From positions 1 to 64,000 of the forward strand of contig NZ_RHNO01000007.1 of the NCBI RefSeq assembly GCF_003946265.1: DNA of 64,000 nt, given 5' to 3'. Of the stretch, positions 8,089 to 53,808 are shown one piece after another. This stretch comes from Levilactobacillus yonginensis (GTDB taxonomy: Bacteria > Bacillota > Bacilli > Lactobacillales > Lactobacillaceae). Each line of letters starts with the position of its first letter. Position 1 is the stretch's first letter. The position numbers and the translations under genes were made by a program. The notes beneath the pieces were generated by a model that was given only the letters and a program-made list of their open reading frames with translations, searched no databases and had not been told where the DNA came from.

Positions 8089-8105
8089 GTTCTGACCTCC
8101 TCTGC

Positions 8106-33300: not shown

Positions 33301-33378
33301 CCCCACGCCCGGGTAAATTATGTGACCAATTTTGATTAATCATCTAATGCGTTGGATTCTCCCAAATCCGTCGTCTCC

Positions 33379-33548
33379 GGCGGTCAAAGCGAGGGCCAGC
33401 TGTGGGGATCGGAGAAAGCCAGAGGGCGGTCTTTCTCCTCGACTTGCAGCCTCGGCAAATCACCGAAGCTTCAAGCTCGTCCCACGATATCACTTGGCCA
33501 ACCCACCAAGTGATATCGTCTGCACAGCTGACCCCCGCTTTGACCGCC
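33379..33548 (-). ncRNA. structured intergenic element, copy C
   Basis: Read on the minus strand. Outer helix: 26 consecutive pairs between 33523-33548 and 33379-33404, two of them G-U. Apical hairpin with ACGATATCACTTGG and its perfect complement. Then GGGACGAGCTTG, a hairpin GCTTCGG/CCGAGGC with GGTGA at its loop, AAGTCGA, hairpin GGAGAAAG/CTTTCTCC (33431-33438 with 33411-33418) with loop ACCGCCCTCTGG, and CCGATCCCCAC. Core segments match copies A and B while the stems differ and compensate. Lies between the aldo/keto reductase terminator and the rbsR promoter; no own promoter is evident. Confidence 0.65.
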
Positions 33549-33655
33549 TCCGACTTCATTGGTGACTAAAATTTCAACTTTGTGCGACCTAACCTGCATA
33601 ACAATTAGCAATCAAAATTTACCCTAATAAAATTACTTTAAAACCCTATTAGACA

Positions 33656-33688
33656 CAAAAATGGCCATCAAGTTGCGACAGCCATTTT
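33656..33688 (-). terminator. aldo/keto reductase terminator
   Basis: AAATGGC and GCCATTTTT pair on the minus strand around a 14-base loop, ending in T's, about 20 bases past the stop. Confidence 0.65.
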
Positions 33689-33705
33689 GAATATTCCAAT
33701 TAAAA

Positions 33706-34695
33706 TTAAGCTTTTAAAATCTTATCGATAGCAGCTAATTGCTCCGGATCAAATTCTAAGTTCTGGACTGCCTTGATATTTTCCAACAAGTGTTCAGACT
33801 TAGATGCCCCAGTAATCACACTGGTAATCACCAGATTGTGCAACAACCAGGCCAGTGCCATGTGTGACAGTTTTTGACCACGACTCTGCGCAATCTGATT
33901 CAGACCTAACAGCTTGTGATAAAGCTTGTCACGCCCCTGCTTCAAGATGTATTCACTGGACCAGTGAATATCAACGTCTTCAGGAATCCCATCCAAGTAT
34001 TTGTCAGTCAATAAGCCCTCACATAAGGGACCGTACGCAATCGCGCCGGCATTATTTTCCCGTAAGCGGTCAAATAACCCGTCGTCGGCAGCAGACTGAT
34101 TCAGCATATTATAAGAAACTTGGTCGACCACAAATGGTGTATGCAAGTCTTTAAATATTTTGATCATTGCCAGAGCTTGTGGCGCCGTGTAATTAGAAAT
34201 ACCAACGTACAAAGTCTTACCCTGCTTCACCAGATTATCCAAGGCAACCGCCGTTTCCTCTGGGTCCGTTTCTGGGTCAAACCGGTGACTGTAGAAAATG
34301 TCGACGTAGTCCAAGCCCATGGCTTGAAGTGACCGATCCAATGAAGCGGTCAATGCTTTACGCGAACTCATTTGTCCGTAAGGCCCAGGCCACATGTGGA
34401 AGCCCGCCTTACTACTGATGATCAATTCATCACGGTAGGGCTTCAATTCTCGTTCCAAGACTTGACCAAACAACCGCTCTGCCTCGTAAGAACCAGGACC
34501 ATAGTTGGCTGCTAAATCAAAGCTAAAAATTCCGGCGTCAAACGCCTTGAGAATGATGTCGCGGGTGTCACCGTAATTCGCGTTCTCCCCAAAACTATGC
34601 CACATACCAAAAGAAATAGCTGGTAACTGAAAACCCGTGTTACCAGCCCGCCGAATTGGCATTTTTTCATAACGATGTTCATCTGCAAGATACAT
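33706..34695 (-). CDS. aldo/keto reductase (YghZ/Gpr type)
   Basis: NADPH-dependent reductase of the AKR superfamily. 329 residues with the catalytic set visible: Asp and Tyr in FDLAANYGPGSYEAE, Lys in ELIISSKAGFHMWPGPYG, His in VDIFYSHRFD. The GPYGQMSSRKAL stretch and the N-terminal MPIRRAGNTGFQLPAISFGMW resemble E. coli YghZ (L-glyceraldehyde 3-phosphate reductase), but the substrate is inferred only. Own promoter and terminator. Confidence 0.9.
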   Translation of the reverse strand: MYLADEHRYEKMPIRRAGNTGFQLPAISFGMWHSFGENANYGDTRDIILKAFDAGIFSFDLAANYGPGSYEAERLFGQVLERELKPYRDELIISSKAGFHMWPGPYGQMSSRKALTASLDRSLQAMGLDYVDIFYSHRFDPETDPEETAVALDNLVKQGKTLYVGISNYTAPQALAMIKIFKDLHTPFVVDQVSYNMLNQSAADDGLFDRLRENNAGAIAYGPLCEGLLTDKYLDGIPEDVDIHWSSEYILKQGRDKLYHKLLGLNQIAQSRGQKLSHMALAWLLHNLVITSVITGASKSEHLLENIKAVQNLEFDPEQLAAIDKILKA

Positions 34696-34730
34696 TTTGC
34701 CACTTTCCTTTCCTCTTATACCTAGTGTAA

Positions 34731-34759
34731 AGTATAGAGAATTGGTGTGGACCAGTCAA
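34731..34759 (-). promoter_or_regulatory. aldo/keto reductase promoter
   Basis: TTGACT (34754-34759) and TATACT (34731-34736), 17-base spacer, minus strand. The -35 is next to the murQ stop region. Confidence 0.7.
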
Positions 34760-34768
34760 GCCATGGTG

Positions 34769-35677
34769 TTACTGTTGATCATCATTTAACTTGACGGCTT
34801 GTGACACGTGACCACCGGTAGCCGCCAACAAACTCTTGGCCTCAGCGATGGTTCCCTTCGTTTCAATCAGCACAATGGCCAAAGGAACGTTGTTGCCCGC
34901 TCGATCTAGAGCCCGCTCTGCAGCAATCATAGATGTCTGAGTGGCTTCAGCAATAATTTTTTTGGCCCGTTCAAACGTCTTGCCATTGGTTGGCACCACG
35001 TTGATCATCAGGTTTTGATAGACCTTGCCGGACTTAACCATAATTCCCGTGGACAACATGTTCAGTACCATTTTTTCCGCAGTCCCCGCCTTTAAAAGCG
35101 TGGCCCCCGTGATGATTTCAGGACCAACGACTGGTGTAATTGGGTAATCCGCCAGTTCAGCCAAAGGACTGCCCTCAATACAAGAAAAACCAATACCCAG
35201 GGCCCCCTGTTTCTGTGCAAAGTCCAGGGCAGCTAGTGTGTATGGCGTTTGGCCGGAAGCAGCGCTCGCCACCACCACGTCCTGCGCCGTTAAATTGACT
35301 GCTGCTAAATCGTCGTGGGCTAGTTCCGGCGAATCTTCAGCCGATTGCACCGTGTGCGTCAGTGCATCAGCTCCACCGGCAATCAGGCCAAAAGTCTGTT
35401 CAGCCGTCAACCCATAAGTTGGTTGTAGTTCAGTGGCATCGATCACACCTAACCGACCCGAAGTCCCAGCGCCAATATAAATCAACCGGCCACCCTGATC
35501 AAACTTGGGATAGGCAGCGTCAATCGCCGCCGCAATTTGAGGCAATTCCTTCTGTACCGCCCTTGCTACCCGGTGGTCCTCCCGGTTAATCGTTGCTACC
35601 ATTTCTAACGTGGATTCCCGATCGATGTGCGTCGACCGGTGATTACGTTGCTCTGTTAGTAAGTCGTCAAATTGCAT
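34769..35677 (-). CDS. murQ: N-acetylmuramic acid 6-phosphate etherase
   Basis: Cleaves the lactyl ether of MurNAc-6-phosphate to GlcNAc-6-phosphate and D-lactate in cell-wall recycling. The 302-residue protein has the SIS-domain signature GGRLIYIGAGTSGRLGVIDATELQPTYG and the catalytic segment around QSAEDSPELAHDDL, and the C-terminal UBA-like helices (SLLAATGGHVSQAVKL). No MurP transporter or MurR regulator is adjacent. A cre site just downstream of the promoter suggests catabolite repression. Confidence 0.93.
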   Translation of the reverse strand: MQFDDLLTEQRNHRSTHIDRESTLEMVATINREDHRVARAVQKELPQIAAAIDAAYPKFDQGGRLIYIGAGTSGRLGVIDATELQPTYGLTAEQTFGLIAGGADALTHTVQSAEDSPELAHDDLAAVNLTAQDVVVASAASGQTPYTLAALDFAQKQGALGIGFSCIEGSPLAELADYPITPVVGPEIITGATLLKAGTAEKMVLNMLSTGIMVKSGKVYQNLMINVVPTNGKTFERAKKIIAEATQTSMIAAERALDRAGNNVPLAIVLIETKGTIAEAKSLLAATGGHVSQAVKLNDDQQ

Positions 35678-35709
35678 AGTGTTCTGCCTCCAGCTCCGTG
35701 AATTGTTTA

Positions 35710-35723
35710 TGTATTCGCTTTCA
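35710..35723. promoter_or_regulatory. cre site in the murQ leader
   Basis: TGAAAGCGAATACA on the minus strand matches TGWAANCGNTNWCA except one position. It lies about 15-28 bases past the murQ -10, a position where CcpA blocks initiation or elongation. Confidence 0.55.
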
Positions 35724-35737
35724 TAAATCTTACTCTA

Positions 35738-35766
35738 GGTATAACATGTTTCATACGCAATTTCAA
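35738..35766 (-). promoter_or_regulatory. murQ promoter
   Basis: TTGAAA (35761-35766) and TATACC (35738-35743) with a 17-base spacer and a TGT extension before the -10. Confidence 0.6.
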
Positions 35767-35927
35767 TTCTCAATTAAAATCAGCCGAGAGTTTCGCCGGT
35801 CACCAGTCAAAATCCGACCACCTCTCGCCCACTGCAAAAATTTTCTGAAACGATGTGAACACCTTGACTCATCCACCTTTTAAGCACCTTGCTTTTCAAA
35901 TTGAAGCCGCGGATTTAATCCCTAAAT

Positions 35928-35959
35928 AAAAAAAACGTACAGAATTTTCATTCTGTACG
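35928..35959 (-). terminator. amidase-oppA terminator
   Basis: CGTACAGAAT GAAA ATTCTGTACG on the minus strand followed by TTTTTTTT. Confidence 0.9.
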
Positions 35960-35972
35960 CCCACTGATCTAA

Positions 35973-37619
35973 CTATTTTTTCAATTCCATCCATTGGTAC
36001 CCGCGACTCATCCCCGCTGGATTCCAAACGTAACCAGCGACCTTTGAATTCCACATCTCAACCGTAGCTGGTTGATACAGTGGTACCAGGCCTTGCTGCG
36101 TCATCAGCCGCTTTTCAGCGCTGACTAAGTCTTGGTAACGAGCGGTTGGGTTGTTGGCATCCTGATTCTCGGACTTCTTAACATCGCTATCGTACTGGGC
36201 ATCGGAGAAACCACCATTATTATTGGTGTTACCAGTACTCATCAACGACAAGAAGTTAATTGGATCAGCAAAGTCGGCACCCCAACTGGAGATAACCAAA
36301 TCAAAGTTACCGGCATTCGACCGACTTAACCGAGTCTTGTACGGTAAGGTATTGATAGAAACCTTTACGTTCGGCAACTTCTGCAGCTCTGCTTGAACGT
36401 ACTGAGCAACCGTCTTCGTAACACTGGTGTCATCAGCCATCAGCGTTAAGTCCAATTGCTTCGTACCAGACGCTTTCAACCCGGCCTTCATCAATTTCTT
36501 GGCTGCGGTCAAATTGTAGGCAACCCCATCCTTGACGTAAGCGTCCTTAGCAAAGTCTGCCTTGGTCTTGGGGTTCTGCGTCAAATTCTCAGACACGAAG
36601 CCCAGTGGTGCCTTGGACCCATCCCGTAACACACTCTTAGCCAGTTGCTTTTTATCAATTGCCAATGACAGAGCTTGACGAACCTTCAAGTTCTTCAGTG
36701 CCTTGACCCGCTTTTGATTCATCTGCATGTAATAGGTCGTGCCACCGACAAAGGTTTTCATGTCACTGTTGTTCTTCAGGTTCGCAACCTGTGTCCCATC
36801 TAAAGTCGTGGCATCAAGTTCCTTCTTTTGATACAAGTTCAGACCCGTTGATGGATCAGCCACGACCTGGAAGTTTAACTTCTTTAAAGTGATGGTCTTT
36901 TTATCCCAAAATTGTGGGTTCTTTGCCAACGTCCAGCTTTGATCAGTCCCCTGCCACTTGGTCATGACAAATGGCCCATCGTAGGCCGTCTTACCACTGG
37001 AATGACCGTAGTCGCTACCATACTTCTCCACGACACTCTGTTCCTGTGGGAAGAAGGTTGGAAAGGCCAACAACAATTTAAAGTAAGCCACTGGTTTGCT
37101 CAACGTTACCTGTAGTGTCGACTTGTTCAGTGCCTTCACACCCAGCTGACTAGGCGCCACTTTGCCACTCTGAACGGCACTATAATTTTTAAGGCCTGCC
37201 ATCAAATAGGCGTATTCAGCCGCCGTCTTAGGTGCGACCGTCCGCCGCCAAGAATAAACGAAATCCTGGGCAGTGACCGTCTTACCGTCGTTCCAATGGT
37301 TATTCTTCCGGAGGTTAAAGACGTAGGTCTTCCCACCGTTTGAAACCGTGGTCTTCGTAGCCAATGCGTTAATTAATTTTTCCTTTTTACCTAACCGATA
37401 CAATCCCTCTTGGGTGTGGTATAGCTGGGTCAAACTGGTCGAGTCCGCCGCTTTAGATACATCCAGCGTGGTTACCTCGGATTTAGTCGAGAGCTTGACG
37501 TCTTGCTTAGCCGCCAACTGTCCCGAATTGTTCGAAGACGTTGACTTACCACAGGCAGCCAATCCCCCGGCTACCAATAGTGTCGCTCCGATTAAAAGTC
37601 TTAACTGTTTTCCCTTCAA
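35973..37619 (-). CDS. peptide ABC transporter substrate-binding lipoprotein (OppA family)
   Basis: Extracellular solute-binding protein family 5, which captures oligopeptides for an Opp-type importer. 548 residues with a lipoprotein signal (LRLLIGATLLVAGGLAACGKS, lipobox LAAC), the family-5 signature region (TVTAQDFVYSWRRTVAPKTAAEYAYLMAGLKN) and DLVISSWGADFADPINFL. The start is TTG at 37619, behind GAGGAG. It is 12 bases downstream of the amidase, with no permease or ATPase genes, so it must partner with an importer elsewhere. Confidence 0.9.
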   Translation of the reverse strand: MKGKQLRLLIGATLLVAGGLAACGKSTSSNNSGQLAAKQDVKLSTKSEVTTLDVSKAADSTSLTQLYHTQEGLYRLGKKEKLINALATKTTVSNGGKTYVFNLRKNNHWNDGKTVTAQDFVYSWRRTVAPKTAAEYAYLMAGLKNYSAVQSGKVAPSQLGVKALNKSTLQVTLSKPVAYFKLLLAFPTFFPQEQSVVEKYGSDYGHSSGKTAYDGPFVMTKWQGTDQSWTLAKNPQFWDKKTITLKKLNFQVVADPSTGLNLYQKKELDATTLDGTQVANLKNNSDMKTFVGGTTYYMQMNQKRVKALKNLKVRQALSLAIDKKQLAKSVLRDGSKAPLGFVSENLTQNPKTKADFAKDAYVKDGVAYNLTAAKKLMKAGLKASGTKQLDLTLMADDTSVTKTVAQYVQAELQKLPNVKVSINTLPYKTRLSRSNAGNFDLVISSWGADFADPINFLSLMSTGNTNNNGGFSDAQYDSDVKKSENQDANNPTARYQDLVSAEKRLMTQQGLVPLYQPATVEMWNSKVAGYVWNPAGMSRGYQWMELKK

Positions 37620-37631
37620 AACGTTCGCTCC

Positions 37632-39119
37632 TCAATCTAATTTAGTTGCATGTAACCATTTTAACCGTCCTGCCCGTTCAAATAAAGCGCCAAGACTCAA
37701 AAGCCGTAATTCTTCTCCCTTGGCAGCGTTGAATTGAATGCCCAGTGGCAATCCGTCGGCCGTAATCGCAGTTGGCAGGCTAATGGCCGGTTCACCGGTA
37801 AGATTGGCCTGTTGCGTGAATGGTGAGCGGGTCAGTGCGGGTAACCATTGGTCATAGATCAACTGTTTCTGTGCAGCCGCAGACAATCCCGCAATATCGG
37901 CCATTTTTGCTGCATTTTCAGGTGAGACTAGTGAATCTCCCACCTTAGGCGCTGGCCAAGCAGTCGTTGGTGTCAGCACCACCGGATACTTCGCGTGTAA
38001 TTGTGCCATCTGCCAGGCAGCCTGATCCCATTTACCCAGTGCCAGGCTGTAATCAGCGGCGGTCGTCTTCAGCCCAGTCTGATAAAGAGCCCAGGTCAGC
38101 AGTTCCATGTCGTCCGCTTGCAAAGGCCGTCCAATTTGTGCGGCCAATTCACTCATAAAGGCCGCGGTCTCACCAGCATTCATGGTGTAGTAACTTTCCA
38201 TGAGCGCAACGCCATCGATTGGGTTATGCACCTCTTCCACGTCGAATCCTTGCTCCGTCAGAAAACTAACGGCCGCCATTACCGCCTGAACGGCATCGGG
38301 ACTAACTGGCGTCCCCACCGGTGACTCAGTAGTATAACCAATCACGCCAGGTTGAACCGGTTGTTCTAACTGGGCAAAAAATCCTGGACGAACTAAAGGT
38401 GTTTGAAAGACCGCGGCGGGCTGTAAGACCTGCAAGCTGTCCAGTAAAGCGGCCGTATCTTTAATGGAGCGGGTCAGTCCAAAATCAATCGCTGCCCCCT
38501 GCCAGGACCGCCAGTCGCCCGGCCCCACGGGGACCCGACCGCGCGTTGGCTTTAACCCAATCGTGCCGGACCAGGATGATGGGATTCGGATCGAACCGCC
38601 CCCGTCACTCCCGGCTGCGATGGGGACCAAGCCAGCCGCAACCGCAGCACCAGCCCCGCCGGAGGAACCACCGGGTTGATAGTCTAGATTCCAGGGATTA
38701 TGCGCGTCCCCGTATAACTGCGAATCCGTAATATTTTTAAACCCAAATTCAGGATAATTGGTCTGACCAATCACAATGAACCCGGCCCGTTGTAAAGCTT
38801 CGACAAAAAAACTAGTCTGTGATGCCACGTTAGCTTTCAATAATCGAGAGCCACTGGTACTTGGCAAGCCCTGCAACTGTTGACCTAATCCCTTCAATAG
38901 TAAAGGAACTCCCAAAAAGGGCTGACCCGTATCAACTTGTTCAGCAGCTTCCTGTAACGCCTGGGCCTTGCGCGTAGAAATTACCGCGTTCAACTGTGGG
39001 TTCTGCCGGTCGATTTCCGCAAACGCCGCTTCAACTAACTCTTGACTAGTGACTTCACCGCCACGCACCCGTTGCGCCCACGTTAATGCGGGCGTACCAA
39101 TCCAATCGTTCAGTTCCAA
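37632..39119 (-). CDS. amidase signature family enzyme
   Basis: Hydrolase of the amidase-signature superfamily, 495 residues. The Ser-cisSer-Lys machinery is visible: Lys in VPLLLKGLG (about residue 76) and the Gly/Ser-rich YQPGGSSGGAGAAVAAGLVPIAAGSDGGGSIRIPSSWSG (about 145-185). It is a stand-alone enzyme, not GatA, because gatC/gatB are absent and the C-terminal region differs. TTG 39119 follows GAGGAGG by eight bases. Co-transcribed with a peptide-binding lipoprotein, hinting at amide or peptide use; the substrate is unknown. Confidence 0.85.
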   Translation of the reverse strand: MELNDWIGTPALTWAQRVRGGEVTSQELVEAAFAEIDRQNPQLNAVISTRKAQALQEAAEQVDTGQPFLGVPLLLKGLGQQLQGLPSTSGSRLLKANVASQTSFFVEALQRAGFIVIGQTNYPEFGFKNITDSQLYGDAHNPWNLDYQPGGSSGGAGAAVAAGLVPIAAGSDGGGSIRIPSSWSGTIGLKPTRGRVPVGPGDWRSWQGAAIDFGLTRSIKDTAALLDSLQVLQPAAVFQTPLVRPGFFAQLEQPVQPGVIGYTTESPVGTPVSPDAVQAVMAAVSFLTEQGFDVEEVHNPIDGVALMESYYTMNAGETAAFMSELAAQIGRPLQADDMELLTWALYQTGLKTTAADYSLALGKWDQAAWQMAQLHAKYPVVLTPTTAWPAPKVGDSLVSPENAAKMADIAGLSAAAQKQLIYDQWLPALTRSPFTQQANLTGEPAISLPTAITADGLPLGIQFNAAKGEELRLLSLGALFERAGRLKWLHATKLD

Positions 39120-39273
39120 ACGGACCGCCTCCTCGGTTTCAATGTAAAATAAAATTGTGCAACTTGTGCGCTCTGGAAACCAAAGATATGACCTGTCCCC
39201 AAACCAGGTCAGTCCAACTCCTTGGTGCGACGCAGCTTAACGTTTATCCTATGGCTTAACCTAGCGTCAATTG

Positions 39274-39405
39274 CCCCTGAAAGAATTCAGAGGTTTGTCG
39301 CTCACGTGTCTTGCAACACAGTAGTCCAACATGCCCGTTAGGCACTCCTACTCGTAGTGGCAACATCATCGGGTAATTGACGGCTACCCGTTTAACTATC
39401 AGGAT
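39274..39405 (-). ncRNA. probable omega-RNA / right end of the TnpB element
   Basis: Directly 3' of the tnpB stop the minus strand carries a run of small hairpins: CGGGTA/TACCCG (39370-39390), CACT-CTAC/GTAG-AGTG (39343-39359), GCC/GGC (39333-39343), GTGT/ACAC (39306-39319) and a terminal CCTCTGAA TTCT TTCAGGGG (39274-39293). IS605-type TnpB proteins use an RNA from exactly this place, whose guide lies just beyond the element end. The end itself is inferred to be near 39265-39274. Confidence 0.45.
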
Positions 39406-40626
39406 CTACCCAATAGCTGTTAGCTTCTTAATCTTTGGTCGTTTGATACCGTTCAACCAGTCTTGGCCGAGCATCGCAATATTCATGGCTCCTAATCGGT
39501 CATCGTTACAACGATACTGGCATTGTTTACACCAATACTCGTGAGTATCGTGATGCCGGTTGGCCTTCTCAACCAATCCACACTTGGGACAGCGCTGTGA
39601 AGTAAAGGCCGGATTGACTTTCACAACAGTACTTTGAATAGCCTGAGCCTTGTATGTTAAGAACAGTTCTAGCTGGAAAAATGACCAGGAACGATGACTA
39701 TTACGCAACGACTTAGGCAGGTCATCAGTGTTAAACGTCACGTTAGTTAAATCTTCCAAAGCAAAAAGTGTATGTGAACCATATGCCGCAACGAGTGTCT
39801 TAGCTAGCCGATGATTCACATCAGTCATCCAGCGGTTCTCTCGTTGAGCTAGTTTCTTCAATTTTTTCTTGGCAGATTTAGTACATTTACTTTGTAGTTG
39901 TCGACGGGTCTCAAGCAACTTCTTCCGCTTGCGTAAGATTTTTTGACCATCAAAGAATAGTGTCTTTCCTTCACTATCAAAAGCGGTTGCCAAGAACCGT
40001 AAACCGCGGTCAACACCCACAATTTTGGGATTGTTCCTGTTATCAAAATCACCAGTCTCTTTCGTGATTCCAATATGCAAAAACCACTTACCCCGATTGT
40101 GGACCAACTTAGCAGTTCCAAGCTTCCAGTCCTCAGTAAAGTATTTTTCAAATCCCTTGTCGGTGAATCTTAACTTAGTTCGTTTACTTAGAGTGCTTAT
40201 TGAGATTTGTTGCATCTTATCTACAAAAGAGTAATTACTTTGACGAACTAAATCTGCCTGTGGTCGCCGAAAATGGATAGGTTTCACCAGCCAAGTCAAA
40301 TCCTTTGGAATCTGAATCCACTTATTCTCTTCGTTCTTGAAACGGTAAGGATGTTGTTTCATTTGTTCCTTAACTGTCTTATAGCGGGCCACAACCGTTC
40401 GAAAGACCGATTGGACCATCTGACTATTGAGCGGTGACTCTTGTCTGAATCGTTTGTACAGCTGGTGGTTGATTTTTAACCAACTCAACTGAAACTCGTG
40501 GTCAAAGATCCATTGACTAACAATATTAGCTAATCGTTGATATTCCTGACTCATTACTAGAAATTCATCTGCTTGTTCAGTGTCTGGATAGAGTCTCAGT
40601 TTGATTGTTCGCCCTAACTTAACCAA
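39406..40626 (-). CDS. tnpB: TnpB, IS605/IS1341-type RNA-guided nuclease
   Basis: 406 residues, full length. The split RuvC-like site is complete: Asp in VGVDRGLRFLATAF, Glu in LFALEDLTNV and Asp in CNDDRLGAMNIA. The zinc finger has CPKC and CKQC. N-terminal helix-turn-helix-like segment MVKLGRTIKLRLYPDTEQADEF is typical. TTG 40626 follows GGGAGG by about seven bases. No TnpA transposase is nearby, so the element is either mobilised in trans or retained for TnpB function. Codon style does not differ strongly from neighbours. Confidence 0.92.
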   Translation of the reverse strand: MVKLGRTIKLRLYPDTEQADEFLVMSQEYQRLANIVSQWIFDHEFQLSWLKINHQLYKRFRQESPLNSQMVQSVFRTVVARYKTVKEQMKQHPYRFKNEENKWIQIPKDLTWLVKPIHFRRPQADLVRQSNYSFVDKMQQISISTLSKRTKLRFTDKGFEKYFTEDWKLGTAKLVHNRGKWFLHIGITKETGDFDNRNNPKIVGVDRGLRFLATAFDSEGKTLFFDGQKILRKRKKLLETRRQLQSKCTKSAKKKLKKLAQRENRWMTDVNHRLAKTLVAAYGSHTLFALEDLTNVTFNTDDLPKSLRNSHRSWSFFQLELFLTYKAQAIQSTVVKVNPAFTSQRCPKCGLVEKANRHHDTHEYWCKQCQYRCNDDRLGAMNIAMLGQDWLNGIKRPKIKKLTAIG

Positions 40627-41017
40627 TAGCTACCTCCCCTGTAGATTGGATCAAGTATACCATGGTTAGCTTTCCAGGGGAACATACGTTTCAAAAAATA
40701 ACATTAAATTCTGGCATTCATCCCGCAATTAAAATCGCAGATTTTCTGCTTGGTTTTTAATAAAACGTGAGTCAACGCCATATTTACGACTGATCTGACT
40801 GCTAACTTCAATGAACGTCAAGGGAATCATGAATCATACTTGTCAGCACGACCGTAAATTCATGATTGCCGTACAAAATAAGTAACTGCTGTATGACAGA
40901 AGGTAGTTAGCTAGTGAGCATCAGCTTCGTGCGTTGAAAAATCCTGACTATGCGTTATTTTCACAGCAAAGCTTACCTGCCTTCTGACGCATATTTCAGC
41001 AAAGTAGGCTGAGCGCT
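40627..41017. other. gene-free stretch with several inverted repeats
   Basis: Next to tnpB, CCCCTG (40636-40641) and CAGGGG (40675-40680) flank a TGG-TATACT promoter-like box (40654-40659) and may be the left end of the element. AATCATGAAT (40825-40834) and ATTCATGATT (40858-40867) form a perfect 10-bp inverted repeat. A longer imperfect repeat pairs 40892-40912 with 40971-40993. A short minus-strand frame (MIPLTFIEVSSQISRKYGVDSRFIKNQ..., 40729-40830) lacks a ribosome site and looks like a remnant. Confidence 0.4.
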
Positions 41018-41046
41018 AAAAAAAGAGTGAGACTTTTGCCTCACTC
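41018..41046 (-). terminator. prs terminator
   Basis: GAGTGAG and CTCACTC on the minus strand around GCAAAAGT, followed by TTTTTTT. Confidence 0.85.
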
Positions 41047-41067
41047 CCCTTAACTCATACTTTAATT

Positions 41068-42054: not shown

Positions 42055-42101
42055 AACAGCCTCCCAGTGGGTTCACCACAATCTTAGTTTTTACTGTCTA
42101 C

Positions 42102-42130
42102 ATTATCGCAATCTTTTTTCAGAAACGCAA
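42102..42130 (-). promoter_or_regulatory. prs promoter
   Basis: TTGCGT (42125-42130) and GATAAT (42102-42107) with a 17-base spacer and TGC extension, minus strand. Confidence 0.55.
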
Positions 42131-42147
42131 CGCTTGTGTCATCGAAT

Positions 42148-44667: not shown

Positions 44668-44682
44668 CCGTTCGTCTCCTCC

Positions 44683-45366: not shown

Positions 45367-45375
45367 TTTTTACCT

Positions 45376-46032: not shown

Positions 46033-46159
46033 TGATTATTGCCGTCCTTTCCGTTTAGTCACATAACCTATATTATGCCAGTTTTTCACAAGTTTTCAAA
46101 GAAACTCCTTCAGAAAAGCCAGAATAATTCCTGCGAACTGCCGTCTAACCCCATTATAC

Positions 46160-46206
46160 CGAAAAAGTCCCACCAAACCGGTCAAACCAGCTCGGTGGGA
46201 CTTGTT
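46160..46206 (-). terminator. mnmA terminator (distal)
   Basis: AAGTCCCACC and GGTGGGACTT pair on the minus strand and run into TTTTT. It lies 330 bases past the mnmA stop, beyond structured element A. Confidence 0.7.
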
Positions 46207-46535
46207 AATATTTTGATTATGGTTGTTGGCTGAAAATCTATTGGCCAACCACACACCCATCAGTGTCACCTTTTTTCAACAAATACTTCACTTACACATA
46301 AGCCAGATTGACTTATCATGCAACTTCAGTACAGCTGGAGGTTGGCAGAGATGGTATCGGTTGTGTCGATGGCGTTAGCTTGGGCGAATTATCCCAAGCC
46401 TAGGCCATGGGACGAGTTGGAAGACTCAGTGAACTTCTGAGACTCCCAGTCGAGGAGCAAGACCGCACTATGGCTTGCTCCGGTCCCCACAACAGACGCC
46501 ATCTTTGCCAACCGGAAGCGACAATTGCGACCAAA
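46207..46535. other. long mnmA downstream region
   Basis: No protein gene. It contains a hairpin GTTGGC/GCCAAC near 46226-46249 and, from 46340 to 46513, copy A of the structured element. A TTGACT at 46309-46314 lacks a matching -10. Confidence 0.5.
46340..46513 (+). ncRNA. structured intergenic element, copy A
   Basis: Plus strand. Outer helix GGTTGGCAGAGATGG with CCATCTTTGCCAACC (15 pairs, one G-U), inner helix GTTGTG/CACAAC, apical hairpin GCTTGGG/CCCAAGC, then GGGACGAGTTGGA, hairpin CTCAG/CTGAG with GTGA at the loop, AGTCGA, hairpin GGAGCAAG/CTTGCTCC (46454-46461 with 46474-46481) with loop ACCGCACTATGG, and GGTCCCCAC. Antisense to the mnmA transcript tail. No promoter of its own is recognised. 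Confidence 0.65.
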
Positions 46536-47732
<1,197 letters not shown>

Positions 47733-47734
47733 CT

Positions 47735-47763
47735 AGTTTACCCATTCTCAAGCCGTTTTGCAA
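47735..47763 (-). promoter_or_regulatory. mnmA promoter
   Basis: TTGCAA (47758-47763) and TAAACT (47735-47740), 17-base spacer, minus strand. A perfect AGATTC TGGA GAATCT hairpin follows in the leader (47684-47699). Confidence 0.55.
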
Positions 47764-47835
47764 GCCTGGCGTATCCTTTCACCGTTTTGCTCACTATGAA
47801 AACAACTGAGTGGGTAATCTGCCCACTGATGGTCT

Positions 47836-47868
47836 AAAAAACGCAGCCACTTTCGACTACGCACGGCT
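47836..47868 (-). terminator. terminator after the acetyltransferase pair
   Basis: CAGCC and GGCTG pair on the minus strand around a partly structured 15-base loop, followed by CGTTTTTT. Confidence 0.55.
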
Positions 47869-47876
47869 GATTCGGT

Positions 47877-48716
47877 TCAGGACTCCCGCAAAGATGCCTG
47901 CAACATCGCCGTAGTCAACGGCTGTGGCTCATAGGCCGCTAAGTCTGCCTGAGCCACTAGTGTTGCTATCTGACTGATGACCCCTTTGATGGGACCGTCT
48001 GCTTGCACACCGTGAAACTTGGCAAAATCGTACTGCCACCACCTTAAATCTAAGAGCTCGTCAATCGTTTTAAAATCAAACCGGTACTTGATCACGCGCG
48101 CCGGCCAACCGGCCACAACCGCGTACGGCGGCACGTCATGGGTTACCAGACTACCGGCCGCAATCACCGCCCCGTCACTCACGACGATGCCACTATTGCC
48201 AAAGACCACGTCATCCCCAACCATCACGTCGTTACCAATGACGATTGGCTTCACCGTTGCCTCTGGATTAGCAACCGCCTGAAAGTCTGACTGCTCATTC
48301 TGCAGGTGATCCTGATACGCTTGAATATGGCTGTCAAAACTCACACTAGACGTTGTGAATCGTTGCAACGGGTGATTGTGACCCATTTGGCGAACACGGC
48401 TGCCAATGGACGTGTAGCGGCCCACTAGCGTATTGACCGGCAACTGACTCCAGGAATAGCTAAACGCGCCCATGGTAAAAAAATGTCTCCCTGACCCAAA
48501 GGTGGTAAACGGTTCGATTGCCACGTTCTGGCCCACTCTGATTCGGTCAGTGTCCAGGCTGAAACGTTGAGCCACCGTGTTAAAACGGGTATAGACGTGA
48601 CGTTGCCGGAAACAGTCTGCTACCTTGGTCTGAAACGGCAACGTAACTGCCCGGGGCCGCGTCTGAAGACTGATCTCTTGCTGAAAGAATGTATTATGTC
48701 GAATCTCAGTTGCCAT
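47877..48716 (-). CDS. CatB/Vat-like hexapeptide O-acetyltransferase, second copy
   Basis: 279 residues with left-handed beta-helix repeats ([30 protein letters not shown] ... [56 protein letters not shown]), the pattern of xenobiotic or sugar acetyltransferases using acetyl-CoA. It starts immediately after the stop of its neighbour and is clearly a paralogue of it, aligned over the full length. The acceptor is unknown; resistance should not be assumed. Confidence 0.85.
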
Positions 48717-49565
48717 CTACTCATCCTCCTGCTTCGCAGCCGCCTGAATCATCGTTACCGTTAAGGGTGTCGGCGCATAAGGCCTGAGCTGACCTTGACT
48801 CTGAAGCGTTCGCACTTTTTGCATGAAACTGGCGATGTCTTCCTTAACTTCAATCCCTTGAAACTGCCCAAAGTCATACCGCCACCACTGCAGACGCATT
48901 AATTCGTGGATGGTCGCAAAATCAAACCGAAACTTGATCACCTTCGCTGGCCAACCACCCACAACTGCGTACGGTGGCACATCTTTCGTCACCAGTGACC
49001 CAGCCGCAACGACGGCACCATCGTTGACGACAATCCCTTTGTTACCGAAAACGCAGCCCTTGCCGATCCACACATCATTGCCAATGACGACCGGCTTAAT
49101 CCGATACATGCCGTCCTGGCCAACCGTATCGAACGACAACTCGGGATTGTCAGTCAAATAGTCTTTGAACGGCTGGTGGTAGCGGTCAAACGTGAGACTC
49201 GAGGTCGTAAAGTGGTGTAGCGCGTGATCCACATTCATCACACTCGACCCAGCAGCAACCGAAGAATAGCGACCCATAATGGTATTAGCGGGCAGCTCAC
49301 TCCAAGAATAACTGAACGCGCCCATAGAATGAAAGACGCGCCCACGGCCAAACGCTGCATACGGTTCAATGACCGCATGATTCCCCACAATGATCTTATC
49401 CAGACCAACTTTGAACCGGGTTTCCTGTGACTTAATTTGCGAATACACGCGTTGCTCTCGGAATAACGTGTTTACCGGCTTAGAGTATAAAATCTGTTGC
49501 CGCTGTCGATTCTCCTGATAGGTCAAGTCTTGCTGAAAAAAAGTGATACCCGCAATCTCGGTCAT
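48717..49565 (-). CDS. CatB/Vat-like hexapeptide O-acetyltransferase, first copy
   Basis: 282 residues, the same architecture: AITFFQQ-type N-terminus, GRYSSVAAGSSVMNVDHALHHFTTSSLTFD, then [59 protein letters not shown] 49565 (MTEIAGITFFQQDL) follows GGGAG; the longer frame to 49613 has no ribosome site. Promoter TTGACG-17-TAAGAT lies upstream. The pair interrupts the common nifS-mnmA adjacency, suggesting insertion followed by tandem duplication. Confidence 0.85.
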   Translation of the reverse strand: MTEIAGITFFQQDLTYQENRQRQQILYSKPVNTLFREQRVYSQIKSQETRFKVGLDKIIVGNHAVIEPYAAFGRGRVFHSMGAFSYSWSELPANTIMGRYSSVAAGSSVMNVDHALHHFTTSSLTFDRYHQPFKDYLTDNPELSFDTVGQDGMYRIKPVVIGNDVWIGKGCVFGNKGIVVNDGAVVAAGSLVTKDVPPYAVVGGWPAKVIKFRFDFATIHELMRLQWWRYDFGQFQGIEVKEDIASFMQKVRTLQSQGQLRPYAPTPLTVTMIQAAAKQEDE

Positions 49566-49655
49566 GACTGTCGCTCCCGTCGTTACGTGATTTTTGAAGC
49601 TAAATTTTGGCAAGGTTAGCGCCTAAAGTTCTTTCATCTGCTAATTAATAACTTC

Positions 49656-49684
49656 ATCTTAGCGCCTTTAATTACTATCGTCAA
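49656..49684 (-). promoter_or_regulatory. acetyltransferase pair promoter
   Basis: TTGACG (49679-49684) and TAAGAT (49656-49661) with a 17-base spacer, minus strand. Confidence 0.65.
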
Positions 49685-49732
49685 CGGTTAATATAATGCT
49701 TTAAATTATCAGTCCCTATCCAGCTAGATAGC

Positions 49733-49793
49733 GGTTCAAAAGTTGCCCCACATTGTCAGATGTGTCACCATAGCTATGGTCCGAGATTGAACC
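49733..49793. repeat. three-way-junction inverted repeat
   Basis: GGTTCAA (49733-49739) and TTGAACC (49787-49793) enclose two hairpins: CACAT/ATGTG (49749-49764) and the perfect palindrome ACCATAGCTATGGT (49767-49780). It lies between the DUF1831 terminator and the acetyltransferase promoter. Function unknown. Confidence 0.45.
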
Positions 49794-49812
49794 AGATCCA
49801 CTTTTCTTCTAC

Positions 49813-49842
49813 AAAAAAAGTGGCCTCCCTTAGGAGCACCAC
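49813..49842 (-). terminator. nifS operon terminator
   Basis: GTGG-CTCC TAAG GGAG-CCAC on the minus strand followed by TTTTTTT, right after the DUF1831 stop. Confidence 0.8.
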
Positions 49843-49849
49843 CACATAA

Positions 49850-50191
49850 TTACTTCTTTTGTAAAATCTCACGGTCAATCAAGTTTTGCAGAATAAAGTG
49901 ATACTGTTCCACGTTACCCTCAGCATGGGTACCCTTGAAAATATTGACTCGCGCGTTGCCGGACGCATTGGTCGTGGACATCTTGAAGCCACTCAAGTCC
50001 TTGGCCACGATAACCTTTAACATTTGGTTCTTGTTGTAGGGTGACGTTGGATCAACGGAACGTTCGAGCGTGTAGTTTCCCGCATTGGAGACCTGAAACC
50101 CGACATCCTTCAGTGCGTATGGCTTCACGTTGGGGTGAAGTTCATACGTATCCGTATCGCCATCAACCTGCATTGTTTTTTCAAATAACAT
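49850..50191 (-). CDS. DUF1831 family protein
   Basis: 113-residue protein (MLFEKTMQVDGDTDTYELHPNVKPYALKDVGFQVSNAGNYTLERSVDPTSPYNKNQMLKVIVAKDL) of a Lactobacillales family of unknown function that habitually follows a cysteine desulphurase gene. One base separates it from nifS. A role in sulphur or Fe-S transfer is only suggested by that association. Confidence 0.75.
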   Translation of the reverse strand: MLFEKTMQVDGDTDTYELHPNVKPYALKDVGFQVSNAGNYTLERSVDPTSPYNKNQMLKVIVAKDLSGFKMSTTNASGNARVNIFKGTHAEGNVEQYHFILQNLIDREILQKK

Positions 50192-50192
50192 C

Positions 50193-51389
50193 CTACTTCA
50201 CCTCACTGTGGGATAGGCGCTTCACAATTGCGCTCACATTTTTAACAAACGCGTCGATCTCTGCGCTCGTCGTTTGCTGCCCAAAGGACAACCGAATCGA
50301 CTCGGCAATCCGGGGACTGTCTTCGCCAAACATGGCGGTCAACACGTGCGATGGCTCGATTGAACCAGCGGTACATGCGGACCCACCAGAAACGGCGATG
50401 CCAGCCAAGTCAAGGTTCGTTTGCATCACGTAGGTCGAAATACCCTTGATCCAGATATTCAAAACGTGCTCCAAATTTTCACCTTCCAGGGACCCGTTGA
50501 TATCGAAGTCAACGCCATTGGCGGTCAACCCCTTCACAACCTGTTCCTTGAAGCCGTGGAAACGGACCCGTTTTTCTTCCTTAGCTGCTGGCGTCAGGAG
50601 TTCAACGGCCTTAGCAAAACCAGCAATGGCTGGGACGTTTTCCGTACCGGCCCGCCGCTTTTCCTCTTGGTCGCCACCCTTGATTAGGCTAGGGAAGTTG
50701 ACCCCTTCCCGTTTGTACAGGAAACCAATCATCTTAGGACCATTGATTTTGTGAGCAGACGTCGACAGTAAGTCAATGTGATCTGCCTGCACGTCAATAT
50801 CTAATGAACCGTAAGCCTGAACGGCATCCGTATGGAACCAAGCTTGGTGATCCTTTAAGATCTCACCAATCTCGTGAATCGGCATCCGACTTCCAACTTC
50901 ATTGTTCCCCATCATGATCGTCACTAAAATCGTGTCGTCACGCAGAGCCGCCTTGAAGTCATCCAAACTGATTCGCCCATGCTCATCAACGGGAAGATAC
51001 GTGACCTCAAACCCTTTTTCTTCCAACGCGTGCAGTGGGCGTAACACGGCTTCGTGTTCAACTGCGGTCGAGATGATGTGTTTGCCTAAGGACTGGCGGG
51101 TCAATGCCGTCTGAGTAATGGCGGTGTTATCGCCCTCACTCCCACCACTGGTGAAGATGATTTCTTCATCGTGGGCAGCGTTGATGCTATTGGCAATTAC
51201 CTGCCGGCTATTTTCCATCAGGGTGTGGGCTTGACGCCCTAACCCATACAACGTCGAAGCGTTGCCATAAACATTAGCCATCTTATCCGTCATCTCTGCC
51301 AAGACCTCTGGGGCCATTGGTGTCGTGGCGGCGTTGTCCAGGTAGATTTCCTGGACAGCATTACTATTACTTACATGAACCTCTTGCAA
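50193..51389 (-). CDS. nifS: cysteine desulfurase
   Basis: PLP enzyme that takes sulphur from cysteine for tRNA thiolation or cofactor assembly. 398 residues with EIYLDNAATTPM, PLP lysine in STSAHKINGPKMIGFLY and the active cysteine in GGSACTAGSIEPSHVL. The cysteine-loop type and genome context suggest it supplies MnmA. Start TTG 51389 follows AGGAGG by eight bases. Part of csp-nudF-hyp-mtnN-nifS-DUF1831. Confidence 0.94.
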   Translation of the reverse strand: MQEVHVSNSNAVQEIYLDNAATTPMAPEVLAEMTDKMANVYGNASTLYGLGRQAHTLMENSRQVIANSINAAHDEEIIFTSGGSEGDNTAITQTALTRQSLGKHIISTAVEHEAVLRPLHALEEKGFEVTYLPVDEHGRISLDDFKAALRDDTILVTIMMGNNEVGSRMPIHEIGEILKDHQAWFHTDAVQAYGSLDIDVQADHIDLLSTSAHKINGPKMIGFLYKREGVNFPSLIKGGDQEEKRRAGTENVPAIAGFAKAVELLTPAAKEEKRVRFHGFKEQVVKGLTANGVDFDINGSLEGENLEHVLNIWIKGISTYVMQTNLDLAGIAVSGGSACTAGSIEPSHVLTAMFGEDSPRIAESIRLSFGQQTTSAEIDAFVKNVSAIVKRLSHSEVK

Positions 51390-51417
51390 CCTAAAAACCT
51401 CCTGAATAAAACCTAAA

Positions 51418-52110
51418 TTAGTCCTGTGCGGCTAGCAGGTCCAGTAACATTTGTGCGGAACGGTGGCCCGCATCAACGATAAAGTCATCAAAATTAACAC
51501 CAGAATCATTGTCGGCATTGTCGGACATTGCCCGAACCACCACATAAGGGATGTCAAACTGGTGGGCAACTTGACCCACAGCGGCCCCTTCCATTTCACC
51601 AGAAAGTGCATCTGGGAAGTGACCCATGATATCCTTAATGGTTTCTGGACTGTTTAAGAACTGGTCGCCAGACACAATCAAGCCCAACTTCGTCTTCAAG
51701 CCTGTGTCAGCAGCAGCGGCCACAATCTTTTGACCCCACTCCTTGGAGGCTGCAAACCGCGCTGGTTGTTGTGGTAATTGGCCGTATTCATACCCAAATG
51801 CCCGAGCGTCAGCGTCGTGATAGGCCGTTTCAGTCGAGACCACCACGTCACCGATGTTTAAGTCAGGTGCCAGGGCACCGGCAGAACCAGAGTTGATCAC
51901 AATATCCACGTTGAACTGGGTGATCAACAGGGCCGTCGTCAAGCCAGCTTCAACCTTACCAATACCGGAACGCACTAACACGACTTGTTGGCCGTGAATC
52001 GTTCCTTGATAAAATTCCAGCCCGTGAATATCAGTCGTTTGACCGTCTTCCAAGGCATCGTGCAGTTCTTTAATTTCTTCTTCCATGGCGCAGAGAATTC
52101 CAAATGTCAT
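51418..52110 (-). CDS. mtnN: 5'-methylthioadenosine/S-adenosylhomocysteine nucleosidase
   Basis: Hydrolyses MTA and SAH to adenine plus the thioribose sugar, recycling SAM by-products and feeding AI-2 synthesis where LuxS is present. 230 residues with MTFGILCAMEEEIKEL, VINSGSAGALAPDLNIGDVVVS and the catalytic Asp in VVRAMSDNADNDSGVNF. Frame and length normal. Confidence 0.95.
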   Translation of the reverse strand: MTFGILCAMEEEIKELHDALEDGQTTDIHGLEFYQGTIHGQQVVLVRSGIGKVEAGLTTALLITQFNVDIVINSGSAGALAPDLNIGDVVVSTETAYHDADARAFGYEYGQLPQQPARFAASKEWGQKIVAAAADTGLKTKLGLIVSGDQFLNSPETIKDIMGHFPDALSGEMEGAAVGQVAHQFDIPYVVVRAMSDNADNDSGVNFDDFIVDAGHRSAQMLLDLLAAQD

Positions 52111-52127
52111 GTGCTGTGTTCCACTCC

Positions 52128-52427
52128 TTAAATTTCAACAAAAAATAGTATTACGTAAACAATAATGATTAAAACTGATAGCCAAAAAATGGCCCAATTT
52201 AAACGGTGGCCCAACCGTTTTTGCTTACTTTCAGTTGGGTTGACCCGCTGTTCCTCAGGACGTTCATCATTGGCCGGTTCGTTACCATGCCGCCGCGCGT
52301 ATTCCTTTTCTACCTGAACCCGTTTCCGGTCACGTTCTTGAAATTCTTGCTCGGCTTGTTCCTGTTCACGACGATAATCTGCCCGGGTTTTAGGCCGGTC
52401 ACTGGTTTCTCGGTCGTCTGAATGCAT
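52128..52427 (-). CDS. hypothetical tail-anchored membrane protein
   Basis: Not recognised. About 99 residues: a very charged, Glu/Arg-rich helical N-terminal part (DYRREQEQAEQEFQERDRKRVQVEKEYARRHG) and one C-terminal membrane segment (WAIFWLSVLIIIVYVILFFVEI). ATG 52427 is preferred over the upstream GTG. Sits between nudF and mtnN; no function inferred. Confidence 0.7.
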   Translation of the reverse strand: MHSDDRETSDRPKTRADYRREQEQAEQEFQERDRKRVQVEKEYARRHGNEPANDERPEEQRVNPTESKQKRLGHRLNWAIFWLSVLIIIVYVILFFVEI

Positions 52428-52436
52428 CGCTGTCAC

Positions 52437-52979
52437 CTACTTCTGTAATAGCCAGTAATAGATGGCCGTAATCGTCTTGGCATCGTTGATCTCGCCACTT
52501 TCAATCATGGCTTGCGCTTGGTCCTTGGTTACCGTCAGCAATTCCAGGTTTTCACCCTTGTCACGTGGTAACTCAGTTTGAACAGGCTGCAAGTCTGTAG
52601 CTAAGAACAGCGTCATGTACTCATCCGAGAACCCAACGCTGGAATAGAAACCGGTAATTCGTTTTAACTGCCCTGGTTGCATCCGAATTTCTTCGTTTAA
52701 CTCCCGTTTAACGGCGTGTTCAACGTTATCAGCATCCCGACTGTCCAATTTACCCGCTGGAATTTCCAAGGTCACTGCCGCAACCGGCGCGCGCCACTGT
52801 TTTTCCAGAATCATTTGGTTGTCCGCCGTCAGGGCCAAAATCCCCACAGCACCGGAGTGCCGCACGATTTCCCGAAAAGCTTGTTTGCCATCCGGTAACC
52901 GCACTTCTTGGCGTTCCAATTTTAAAATGGCACCGTCGTAAATCTCTTCGGTATTCTCAACGTGTTCTTCTAAGTCCAT
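52437..52979 (-). CDS. nudF: ADP-ribose pyrophosphatase (NUDIX)
   Basis: NUDIX hydrolase of about 180 residues that likely cleaves ADP-ribose. The Nudix box reads GKLDSRDADNVEHAVKRELNEEIRMQPG, matching GX5EX7REUXEEXGU with small changes. ATG 52979 (MDLEEHVENTEEIYDGAILKLER) follows GAGGAGG; the frame reaching 53009 runs into csp. Confidence 0.9.
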   Translation of the reverse strand: MDLEEHVENTEEIYDGAILKLERQEVRLPDGKQAFREIVRHSGAVGILALTADNQMILEKQWRAPVAAVTLEIPAGKLDSRDADNVEHAVKRELNEEIRMQPGQLKRITGFYSSVGFSDEYMTLFLATDLQPVQTELPRDKGENLELLTVTKDQAQAMIESGEINDAKTITAIYYWLLQK

Positions 52980-52980
52980 G

Positions 52981-53205
52981 TTAGGCCTCCTCAGTGGAGC
53001 CCGTAACAACGGGTGTTACTTTAGCCGCTTGGAGGCCACGCAACCCTTGGACAACAACAAATTGTACCGTTTGACCAACTTCCAGCTTCTTGAAGCCTTC
53101 ACCAACGATGGCCGTGTAGTAGACGAAAATGTCGCCGTCTGCGGGTGTCGTAATGAATCCAAAGCCGCGTTGTTCACTGTAACTCTTTACTTTTCCGGTT
53201 AACAT
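52981..53205 (-). CDS. cold-shock-domain protein, atypical
   Basis: 74-residue single cold-shock domain. RNP1 is RGFGFIT and RNP2 is DIFVYYTAI, where the usual His of VFVHFSAI is Tyr. The second half (QTVQFVVVQGLRGLQAAKVTPVV) is more hydrophobic and less acidic than standard CspA-type proteins, so nucleic-acid binding may differ. ATG 53205 follows GGGAGGG. First gene of the operon that ends with nifS; only one base separates it from nudF. Confidence 0.85.
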   Translation of the reverse strand: MLTGKVKSYSEQRGFGFITTPADGDIFVYYTAIVGEGFKKLEVGQTVQFVVVQGLRGLQAAKVTPVVTGSTEEA

Positions 53206-53230
53206 GGTATCCCTCCCATACATAGCACAA

Positions 53231-53259
53231 ATTATACTCGCTTGCGTTGTCGACCGCAA
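53231..53259 (-). promoter_or_regulatory. csp-nifS operon promoter
   Basis: TTGCGG (53254-53259) and a perfect TATAAT (53231-53236) with a 17-base spacer. The leader is only about 20 bases, unlike the long leaders of classical cold-shock genes. Confidence 0.7.
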
Positions 53260-53309
53260 ACCCGGGCACTTATTGCGCCGTTATATTCGACATCCCAACT
53301 AATTCTACA

Positions 53310-53366
53310 CACAAAAGAAGCGCTATGCCAACCACCCCTCCCAATGAACGAGGTGGTTCTCATAGC
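53310..53366. terminator. terminator between ileS and csp
   Basis: A long imperfect stem (AGAAG-GCTATG-AACCACC with GGTGGTT-CATAGC-CTTCT) flanked by TTTT on the minus side and TATTTTTT on the plus side. It closes the ileS transcript about 450 bases past its stop codon. Confidence 0.65.
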
Positions 53367-53596
53367 ACTTCTTATTTTTTAGCTAAATTCGTCATCCAAT
53401 ATGGTCTGGCGACCTCTCGGCTTACACAAGATTTCGCCACAACCAAGATGAACTTAAAGTCTGTTACCAATCCAACCTCATAACGAGTACTCCGGCTGAT
53501 AGTGATAAAACTTCGTAGTTACCTGGTAGCCATTAGTCAACCTAAAGCAAATGTTGAACCTAATGACTCCTAACCGATTGGCCGATAGAGGTCATC
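53367..53596. other. gene-free ileS downstream region
   Basis: About 230 bases with no credible frame and no recognised promoter for structured element B, which follows on the plus strand. Confidence 0.4.
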
Positions 53597-53781
53597 CGTC
53601 TCGAAGGTTGGCCGGGTCAACACCAGCCGTGTAGGTGTTAGTTGCCTGTGATTTTCAGGTAACTAACACGGGACGAACTTGGAGACGCGGTGAGTTTCCG
53701 TGGCTTCAAGTCGAGGAACAAGACCGCTTTCCGGCTTGTTCCGATCCCCACGGCAGCTGCTGACCCGGCCAACCGGAGACG
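53597..53781 (+). ncRNA. structured intergenic element, copy B
   Basis: Plus strand. Outer helix CGTCTC then GGTTGGCCGGGTCA with TGACCCGGCCAACC then GAGACG (20 pairs), inner helix GCCGTG/CACGGC, apical hairpin GTGTTAGTT/AACTAACAC (extended by CCTG/CAGG), then GGGACGAACTTGGA, hairpin CGCGG/CCGTG (one G-U) with GGTGA at its loop, AAGTCGA, hairpin GGAACAAG/CTTGTTCC (53715-53722 with 53735-53742) with loop ACCGCTTTCCGG, and CCGATCCCCAC. Antisense to the ileS transcript tail; a weak AATCAG/CTGATT hairpin plus TTTTC follows at about 53795. Confidence 0.65.
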
Positions 53782-53808
53782 CCATGACCCGCTCAATCAG
53801 CTAACTGA

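Follow-up and report, generated by a model that had tools for sequence, protein, structure and literature searches.

REP sequences and REPINs, which are associated with RAYT transposases, are described as short, structured, intergenic elements of high copy number with inverted neighbours (PMC3116915). ERIC, YPAL and Bcr1 represent miniature inverted-repeat transposable elements (MITEs) and stem-loop repeats: they measure 100-200 nt, are dispersed, many of them lie between genes and they are predicted to fold; the table of the survey that treats bacterial stem-loop repeats includes one Lactobacillus genome, that of L. johnsonii (PMC2267715). Here we report on a repeat found in the first 64,000 nt (forward strand) of contig NZ_RHNO01000007.1 of Levilactobacillus yonginensis (assembly GCF_003946265.1), a stretch that is called the window below. 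The repeat represents a new family of dispersed, structured elements in very high copy number; its lifestyle resembles that of REPs and MITEs, whereas those defining features of REPINs and classical MITEs that were tested are missing. Our preferred reading, held with confidence slightly above even, is that of a REP/MITE-like family of about 187 nt that spreads by way of a single strand recognised by its fold.

Compared with REPs and REPINs as outlined in the source cited above, the element is likewise structured, palindromic, intergenic and high in copy number, tends to have inverted neighbours and shows apparent excision. However, it forms a multibranched fold of 187 nt, whereas REPs are short palindromes; a replicating doublet was not found, the doublets being generally not co-inherited, and a Y1 gene was not found in 11 of 34 genomes. 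With MITEs it shares many dispersed non-coding copies with defined ends, but neither target duplication nor a transposase with matching ends was seen. From ERIC, YPAL and Bcr1, to the extent that the survey characterises them, it differs in this absence of target duplication, in its many branches, strong covariation and conserved unpaired junctions, and in a fold that is constrained after insertion.

A preliminary description, made from the window alone, had reported three copies, A, B and C, of a covarying element. Inspection of the window placed all three essentially where they had been claimed, the unit extending slightly beyond the earlier bounds. The full units and one further match are the following:

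46331..46524, plus strand: copy A, full unit with core 46360-46493; comprises a 5' motif, the outer stem P1 and the 3' motif CCGGAAGCGACAA; ends placed by eye with the family consensus as a guide
53598..53784, plus strand: copy B, full unit with core 53626-53754; model match at the same place in the relative G028
33370..33557, minus strand: copy C, full unit with core 33399-33528; a minus-strand open reading frame (ORF) on either side, the copy in sense with both
56786..56875, minus strand: fourth match, short and weaker, with a core of about 90 nt (36.5 bits; E 1.4e-5)

When the window was scanned unfiltered with a covariance model, the cores of A, B and C gave E values between 1.2e-23 and 1.9e-23; as the model was built from 17 copies including these three, the scan only places them. 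Compared with dinucleotide shuffles, all three fold with far greater stability (z -8.1, -10.5 and -12.1 for A, B and C). Both ORFs beside copy A run antisense to it, and the 3' end of the copy lies about 10 nt from the stop codon of the minus-strand ORF 46536-47663; its locus is alignable throughout in the genomes G027 and G028, with a model match at the same place in the latter. The 3' end of copy B lies about 25 nt from the stop of the minus-strand ORF 53809-56619. At the site in G028 orthologous to copy C no model match was obtained, and apparently only the 3' end of the element is left there. The common junction segments and compensating stem changes described earlier were both correct. 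The outer stems, said to differ totally, do follow a consensus among 17 copies, GCCAGGG ... CCCTGGC. Three copies in 64 kb are a small sample, as at least 150 are present in the genome.

Over 113 copies, the mean unit length is 187 nt. The unit begins with (GT)AGCCGGAGG and ends with CCGGAGGCGGC(AA); beyond these ends conservation drops sharply and only weak preferences are seen. The outer stem P1 is flanked by a near-identical direct repeat of 7-8 nt. Inside it follow the inner helix P2, which often reads GCTGTG/CACAGC, then hairpin P3, which is variable, and a helix GGGAC/GGTCCC that encloses two hairpins, the second with a loop beginning GACCGC; this loop start belonged to the seed pattern used in the searches. 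The 5' foot often reads GTAG, a motif linked to REPs. In a composite subfamily, two inverted halves are separated by a spacer of about 135 nt, and shorter variants with cores of 90-119 nt account for 21/106 matches in G028 and 17/79 in the genome of the window (G000). At G000:C61 72098-72455 (about 8098-8455 of locus L291), the 3' half of the element is present as three partial copies in tandem, at a spacing of about 125 nt.

The exact seed pattern retrieved 17 copies from the genome of the window and none from reverse-read controls. These copies were aligned both as the full unit (A1) and as the core (A2), and gave a covariance model, R1, of 131 positions and 45 pairs. Out of 168 matches in 98 loci, the best 150 (143 of them distinct) went into a third alignment, A3; a broader model, R2, was built from 150 aligned matches. 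With R1, at least 150 matches were found in the window's own genome (150 of 796 candidates were scored). R1 also gave 79 matches in 449 kb of this genome, on contigs picked for their many copies, and 106 in G028, a relative read over the first 2.0 Mb of one contig. Density along G028 is patchy, with four copies per 500 kb at 700-1200 kb of contig C1 and 11-14 per 100 kb at 1200-1600 kb, and there is no strand bias (55 plus, 51 minus).

As for distribution, R1 matched, in a first set, 33 of 35 genomes of the genus and none of the 23 that belong to other genera of the order; when sampling of the order was widened, it matched 17/395 genomes from 6/80 genera. R2 reached 124 of the 397 genomes sampled from the family, in 13 of 40 genera. 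Further copies, the absence of which would have spoken against the earlier claim, are thus plentiful both in the own genome and in other Lactobacillaceae. The exact pattern itself occurred in 67 stretches of genome contigs, of which 17 belong to L. tongjiangensis, L. fuyuanensis or L. parabrevis. At 100 of 103 other loci with the seed pattern (genome contigs and 53 viral contigs) R1 found nothing at E 0.5, which marks those as chance hits, and phage and plasmid collections, each queried with one copy, gave no match.

Covariation is strong in the larger alignment. Among 150 aligned matches, 40 of the 45 core pairs showed changes on both sides, and 96.2% of cells were paired, compared with 73.6% in shuffles and 34-47% in slid pairings. 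When P1 was included, 41/66 pairs had both-side changes in 17 copies, with 14/18 in the main P1 helix. At consensus pairs, G.U exceeded A.C by 234:32, 194:48 and 136:35 in three partly overlapping alignments; since these had been fitted to the structure, a comparison of orthologous copies carries more weight. For this comparison, 105 hits were followed between G000 and G028: 37 were filled, 22 were not, and a further 46 lacked synteny; 28 pairs passed the filters on one-to-one relationship, edges and 80% identity. Sites were taken as paired if paired in the predicted minimum-energy fold, and double changes were counted in both directions.

Within the 28 orthologous copies, divergence was 3.7% at paired and 9.2% at unpaired sites. 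Flanking windows folded in the same way showed no such gap (20.7 v 20.2% on the 5' side, 7.2 v 8.1% on the 3' side). Of the single changes from Watson-Crick pairs, 74 led to G.U and 42 to A.C (p 0.004; bootstrap over loci 0.55-0.74), and the flanks were unbiased at 114:133 and 61:67. Without strand-specific selection, equal counts would be expected, so the excess indicates that the fold of one strand is constrained. Half of the double changes in the 5' flank windows (44 of 88) likewise restored a pair; terminators or a partner copy are present in some flanks. Neutral drift had been suggested by a cruder test in which 50 nt of flank were folded along (singles 79 kept and 85 broken, doubles 8 and 8), but was rejected: the element folded alone (17 pairs, 52:24) shows constraint as does the flank-controlled test on 28 pairs, and we rely on the latter. 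The fold of one strand, as RNA or as single-stranded DNA, thus seems to be constrained in place after insertion. The earlier proposal of selection on structure is borne out by the covariation of pairs and by the slower change of paired sites in orthologous copies.

Constraint of this kind, present in the element and absent from its flanks, would also be expected if the copies were kept as functional RNAs or RNA-level barriers at gene ends. According to this explanation, which we regard as unlikely, the plus strand would be read in antisense transcripts running toward the 3' end of a gene, for instance by read-through from an opposing gene, and its fold would stop, cleave or protect the RNA. 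Placement bears directly on it. With genes defined as the longest-ORF calls made in the analysis, copies are mostly intergenic (1/106 in G028 and 2/79 in G000 overlap a long ORF), and gaps between convergent genes are enriched, holding 37 of the 106 copies in G028 compared with 137 of 778 intergenic gaps. The 3' side is the one nearer to a gene, and the 5' side the farther, in 61/77 isolated copies (p 2.4e-7). For copies lying antisense between two co-directional ORFs this holds in 30/31, the 3' edge of the core being a median 55 nt from the ORF. Copies A and B follow this antisense pattern; copy C is sense to both neighbours, with its 3' side also nearer. The asymmetry supports a role at gene ends, as does the orientation of neighbouring copies given below. 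However, 17/77 isolated copies are sense to both neighbours and 9/77 lie between divergent genes; in co-directional regions, 31 isolated copies are antisense and 17 sense (p 0.06). Moreover, copies have been lost at several sites. Upstream of 46 unpaired copies (30-330 nt), no sigma-70-like promoter with at least 10/12 matches was found, while the reverse strand gave 5 and shuffles 4. T-runs after the element numbered 2 (3.0 expected), and terminators had no fixed position, occurring on the 5' side of 39 and on the 3' side of 26 of 113 copies. Gene contexts are mixed, without the fixed 5' sense position before one class of genes that a riboswitch or leader would occupy. A TPP (thiamine pyrophosphate) riboswitch was noted at L049 1307-1411 (plus), about 90 nt from a copy in G028.

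Neighbouring copies within 700 nt show a preferred orientation: 25 divergent, 0 convergent and 3 same-strand pairs in G028 and 25, 0 and 4 in G000 (50/0/7 in total). The plus-strand match at 56653-56769 of the window, just before the minus-strand match 56786-56875, may be an exception to this rule; it reaches E 0.074 only. Such pairs recall a REP/REPIN-type element in which a Y1 tyrosine transposase (RAYT) would excise inverted doublets as single-stranded DNA, a possibility to which the mostly intergenic position, high copy number, structure and precise deletions also point. Nevertheless, we consider it quite improbable. The doublet was rejected as the general unit because partners of related copies were no more alike than random ones (0.622 v 0.613 and 0.617 v 0.617; 25 pairs per genome, with 41 members each having a relative of at least 75%; 416 and 1002 of 2000 permutations reached the observed value). 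A few pairs do match as pairs, and the composite subfamily, with its linker of about 135 nt, is an exception. A decayed partner was detected beside 4/46 unpaired copies only, in all four on the expected strand. As relatives' partners are no more alike than random, most pairs seem to result from placement and not from co-transposition.

The distribution of the enzyme argues against the same explanation. Y1_Tnp had no match in the 11 genomes mentioned above, including the element-rich G002, G011, G016, G029, G030 and G032, although these are draft genomes in which single absences are weak evidence; G002 and G011 have at least 58 element matches each. Conversely, G021 and G031 have Y1 matches and no element under the first model, and an element (E below 1e-9) was present at only 2 of 30 Y1 loci. 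Y1, IS110 and reverse transcriptase were all rejected as mobilisers: they match 23/34, 9/34 and 10/34 Levilactobacillus genomes, and none tracks the element. An autonomous copy with an internal gene was likewise sought. In 2.0 Mb of G028 and 449 kb of G000, six intervals of 1.5-4 kb separate two halves, and by eye neither their ORFs nor those in stretches of 0.6-3.5 kb from one element to the next resembled a transposase carried by the element. At G028 1297058-1298622 elements enclose two IS3-like ORFs, other copies of which are 5-29 kb from any element. No multi-copy gene regularly adjoins the elements among the 25 largest clusters displayed, which are mostly thousands of bases away, and a few small ORFs are multi-copy solely because they overlap elements.

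Transposons of the IS110 family have guide RNAs, the loops of which match target and donor sequence. The core might be the part of such a transposon that corresponds to its guide RNA (bridge or seeker RNA), or some other non-coding end, with solitary copies as its reduced remains. In three genomes, G308, G246 and the Levilactobacillus genome G005, the core does follow a degenerate IS110-like transposase C-terminus (in G308 about 70 nt past the stop), in what corresponds to the 3' non-coding part of these relics, and downstream of the core is sequence also found in IS110-like relics of Enterococcus plasmids. The NCBIfam IS110 model gave E 0.0035 and 0.036 for two of three remnant fragments, far below its cut-off, and Pfam recognised no IS110 domain in four fragments. 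In five plasmid IS110 regions (three annotated genes, two relics), however, the best model match with filters off was E 0.35, which is chance level, and Transposase_20 (IS110) occurs in only 9/34 genomes of the genus. Besides, the cores of G308 are far more alike than the transposase remnants beside them and have thus been homogenised separately, which argues that the core is a separate module. An origin from IS110 is very improbable, and the core was probably inserted into, or captured by, an IS110 derivative.

Several related IS110 loci were noted. In the Enterococcus plasmids, L414 (NZ_CP032307.1 2151-2306) and L417 are unannotated IS110-like C-terminal fragments with the motif CTTGACTAATCGTAGGAA downstream and no core; they are close to the fragments beside the element in G308, and the motif is common to both. 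Near-identical IS110 transposase genes (392 aa) in differing surroundings, at G000:C61 108828-110006 and G028:C1 608603-609781, mark a recently moved IS110; no structured element was seen around the G000 copy, and the G028 copy has one about 300 nt downstream, on the opposite strand.

Traces of copying and of loss were both found. G308, a genome of another genus, has six cores that are 97-100% identical; four of these share the IS110-like remnant, with flanks 77-87% identical. In the portion of the alignment displayed, eight copies in G365 agree along the element and a little of the flank. A relative more than 95% identical was present in the same data for 14/106 copies of G028 and 3/79 of G000. 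The absent sites that we inspected look like deletions of existing copies. At C23:15350 and at the 56554/56789 site a single copy of the direct repeat is left behind in G028 (GTAGCCGGAGGTGGC, GTAGCCGAAGGCGG), and at G028 1323059 an exact GTAGCCGGAGGCGGCAA stands where G000 has kept a 3' remnant. Insertion of the element into empty IS110 sites of G308 was considered but not borne out: L420 and L421 are deletions inside the core, and L419 keeps its 5' part only; L422 has no core, but there the short direct repeat CACT permits a deletion. Between G000:C23 (about 143-156 kb) and G028:C1 (about 1448-1461 kb), the flanks of several elements are 98-99.9% identical, compared with mostly about 85-94% elsewhere, which points to recent exchange between these species.

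The preferred reading, spread by a fold-recognised single strand, assumes that a single-stranded form is, or was in the recent past, recognised by its outer stem P1, inner helix P2, variable hairpin P3 and G-C rich helix with two hairpins. An enzyme supplied in trans would copy or move the element into intergenic DNA, mostly beside gene ends. Deletion could later remove copies, in some cases precisely across the CCGGAGG direct repeats on either side, and resident copies may at a late stage have gained a use in place. The preliminary description had taken covariation as an argument against a MITE; covariation itself stands, while the argument is less well supported, as sharp ends, location mainly between genes, great copy number, cores that stay near-identical amid diverged surroundings, and deletion scars are all traits of miniature mobile elements. 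The need for the fold seems to be a property of the mobile lineage itself.

Several observations weigh against this reading. No transposase or other protein was linked to the element in profile searches of the genomes or among neighbouring ORFs. With a model match in G028 at 27 of 41 syntenic intervals, many copies predate the split of G000 and G028. Constraint on paired sites in place is unexpected for a purely selfish element, and a mobile-element model leaves the divergent pairing and the 5'/3' distance asymmetry unexplained. Scar-like motifs as a class do not exceed chance (allowing up to 3 mismatches, G028 has 61 matches, of which 27 lie apart from elements; ten shuffled motifs gave 5-33), so that only single sites with a G000 counterpart count. 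None of the inspected sites was a clean pre-insertion site, and no target duplication was seen at aligned ends in the parts of G028 and G000 read; insertion itself is thus something that we infer.

As to novelty, Rfam 15 (4227 families, HEARO-type transposon RNAs among them) gave no hit at gathering scores, either within the window or across the element at six further loci, and a sub-threshold scan around copy A returned three snoRNA/scaRNA models at chance level. The earlier failure to recognise a known family therefore agrees with Rfam; a described family or transposon end, which would have spoken against the claim, was not found there, though transposon ends that Rfam does not list may still correspond to the element. 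A literature search found no title describing the repeat, which is weak evidence of absence given that it covered top-ranked titles and few subscription journals.

At least 13 genera of the Lactobacillaceae, a family of food bacteria, thus carry an abundant, covarying element that has no match in Rfam 15; in G028 it amounts to about 1% of the sequence analysed (106 x 187 nt). It brings together two open questions, how non-coding repeats move when no transposase is apparent and whether they come to serve a purpose. Both lend themselves to direct testing, since species about 90% identical provide orthologous copies for comparison. It is conceivable, though on the unlikely side, that a formerly mobile element persists at gene ends in at least 100 copies per genome, as structured RNAs or single-stranded DNA folds specific to one strand, with the fold selected in place. 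If this is true, the gene-end RNAs would form a genome-wide layer of gene-end control in Lactobacillaceae, for example as barriers to antisense read-through.

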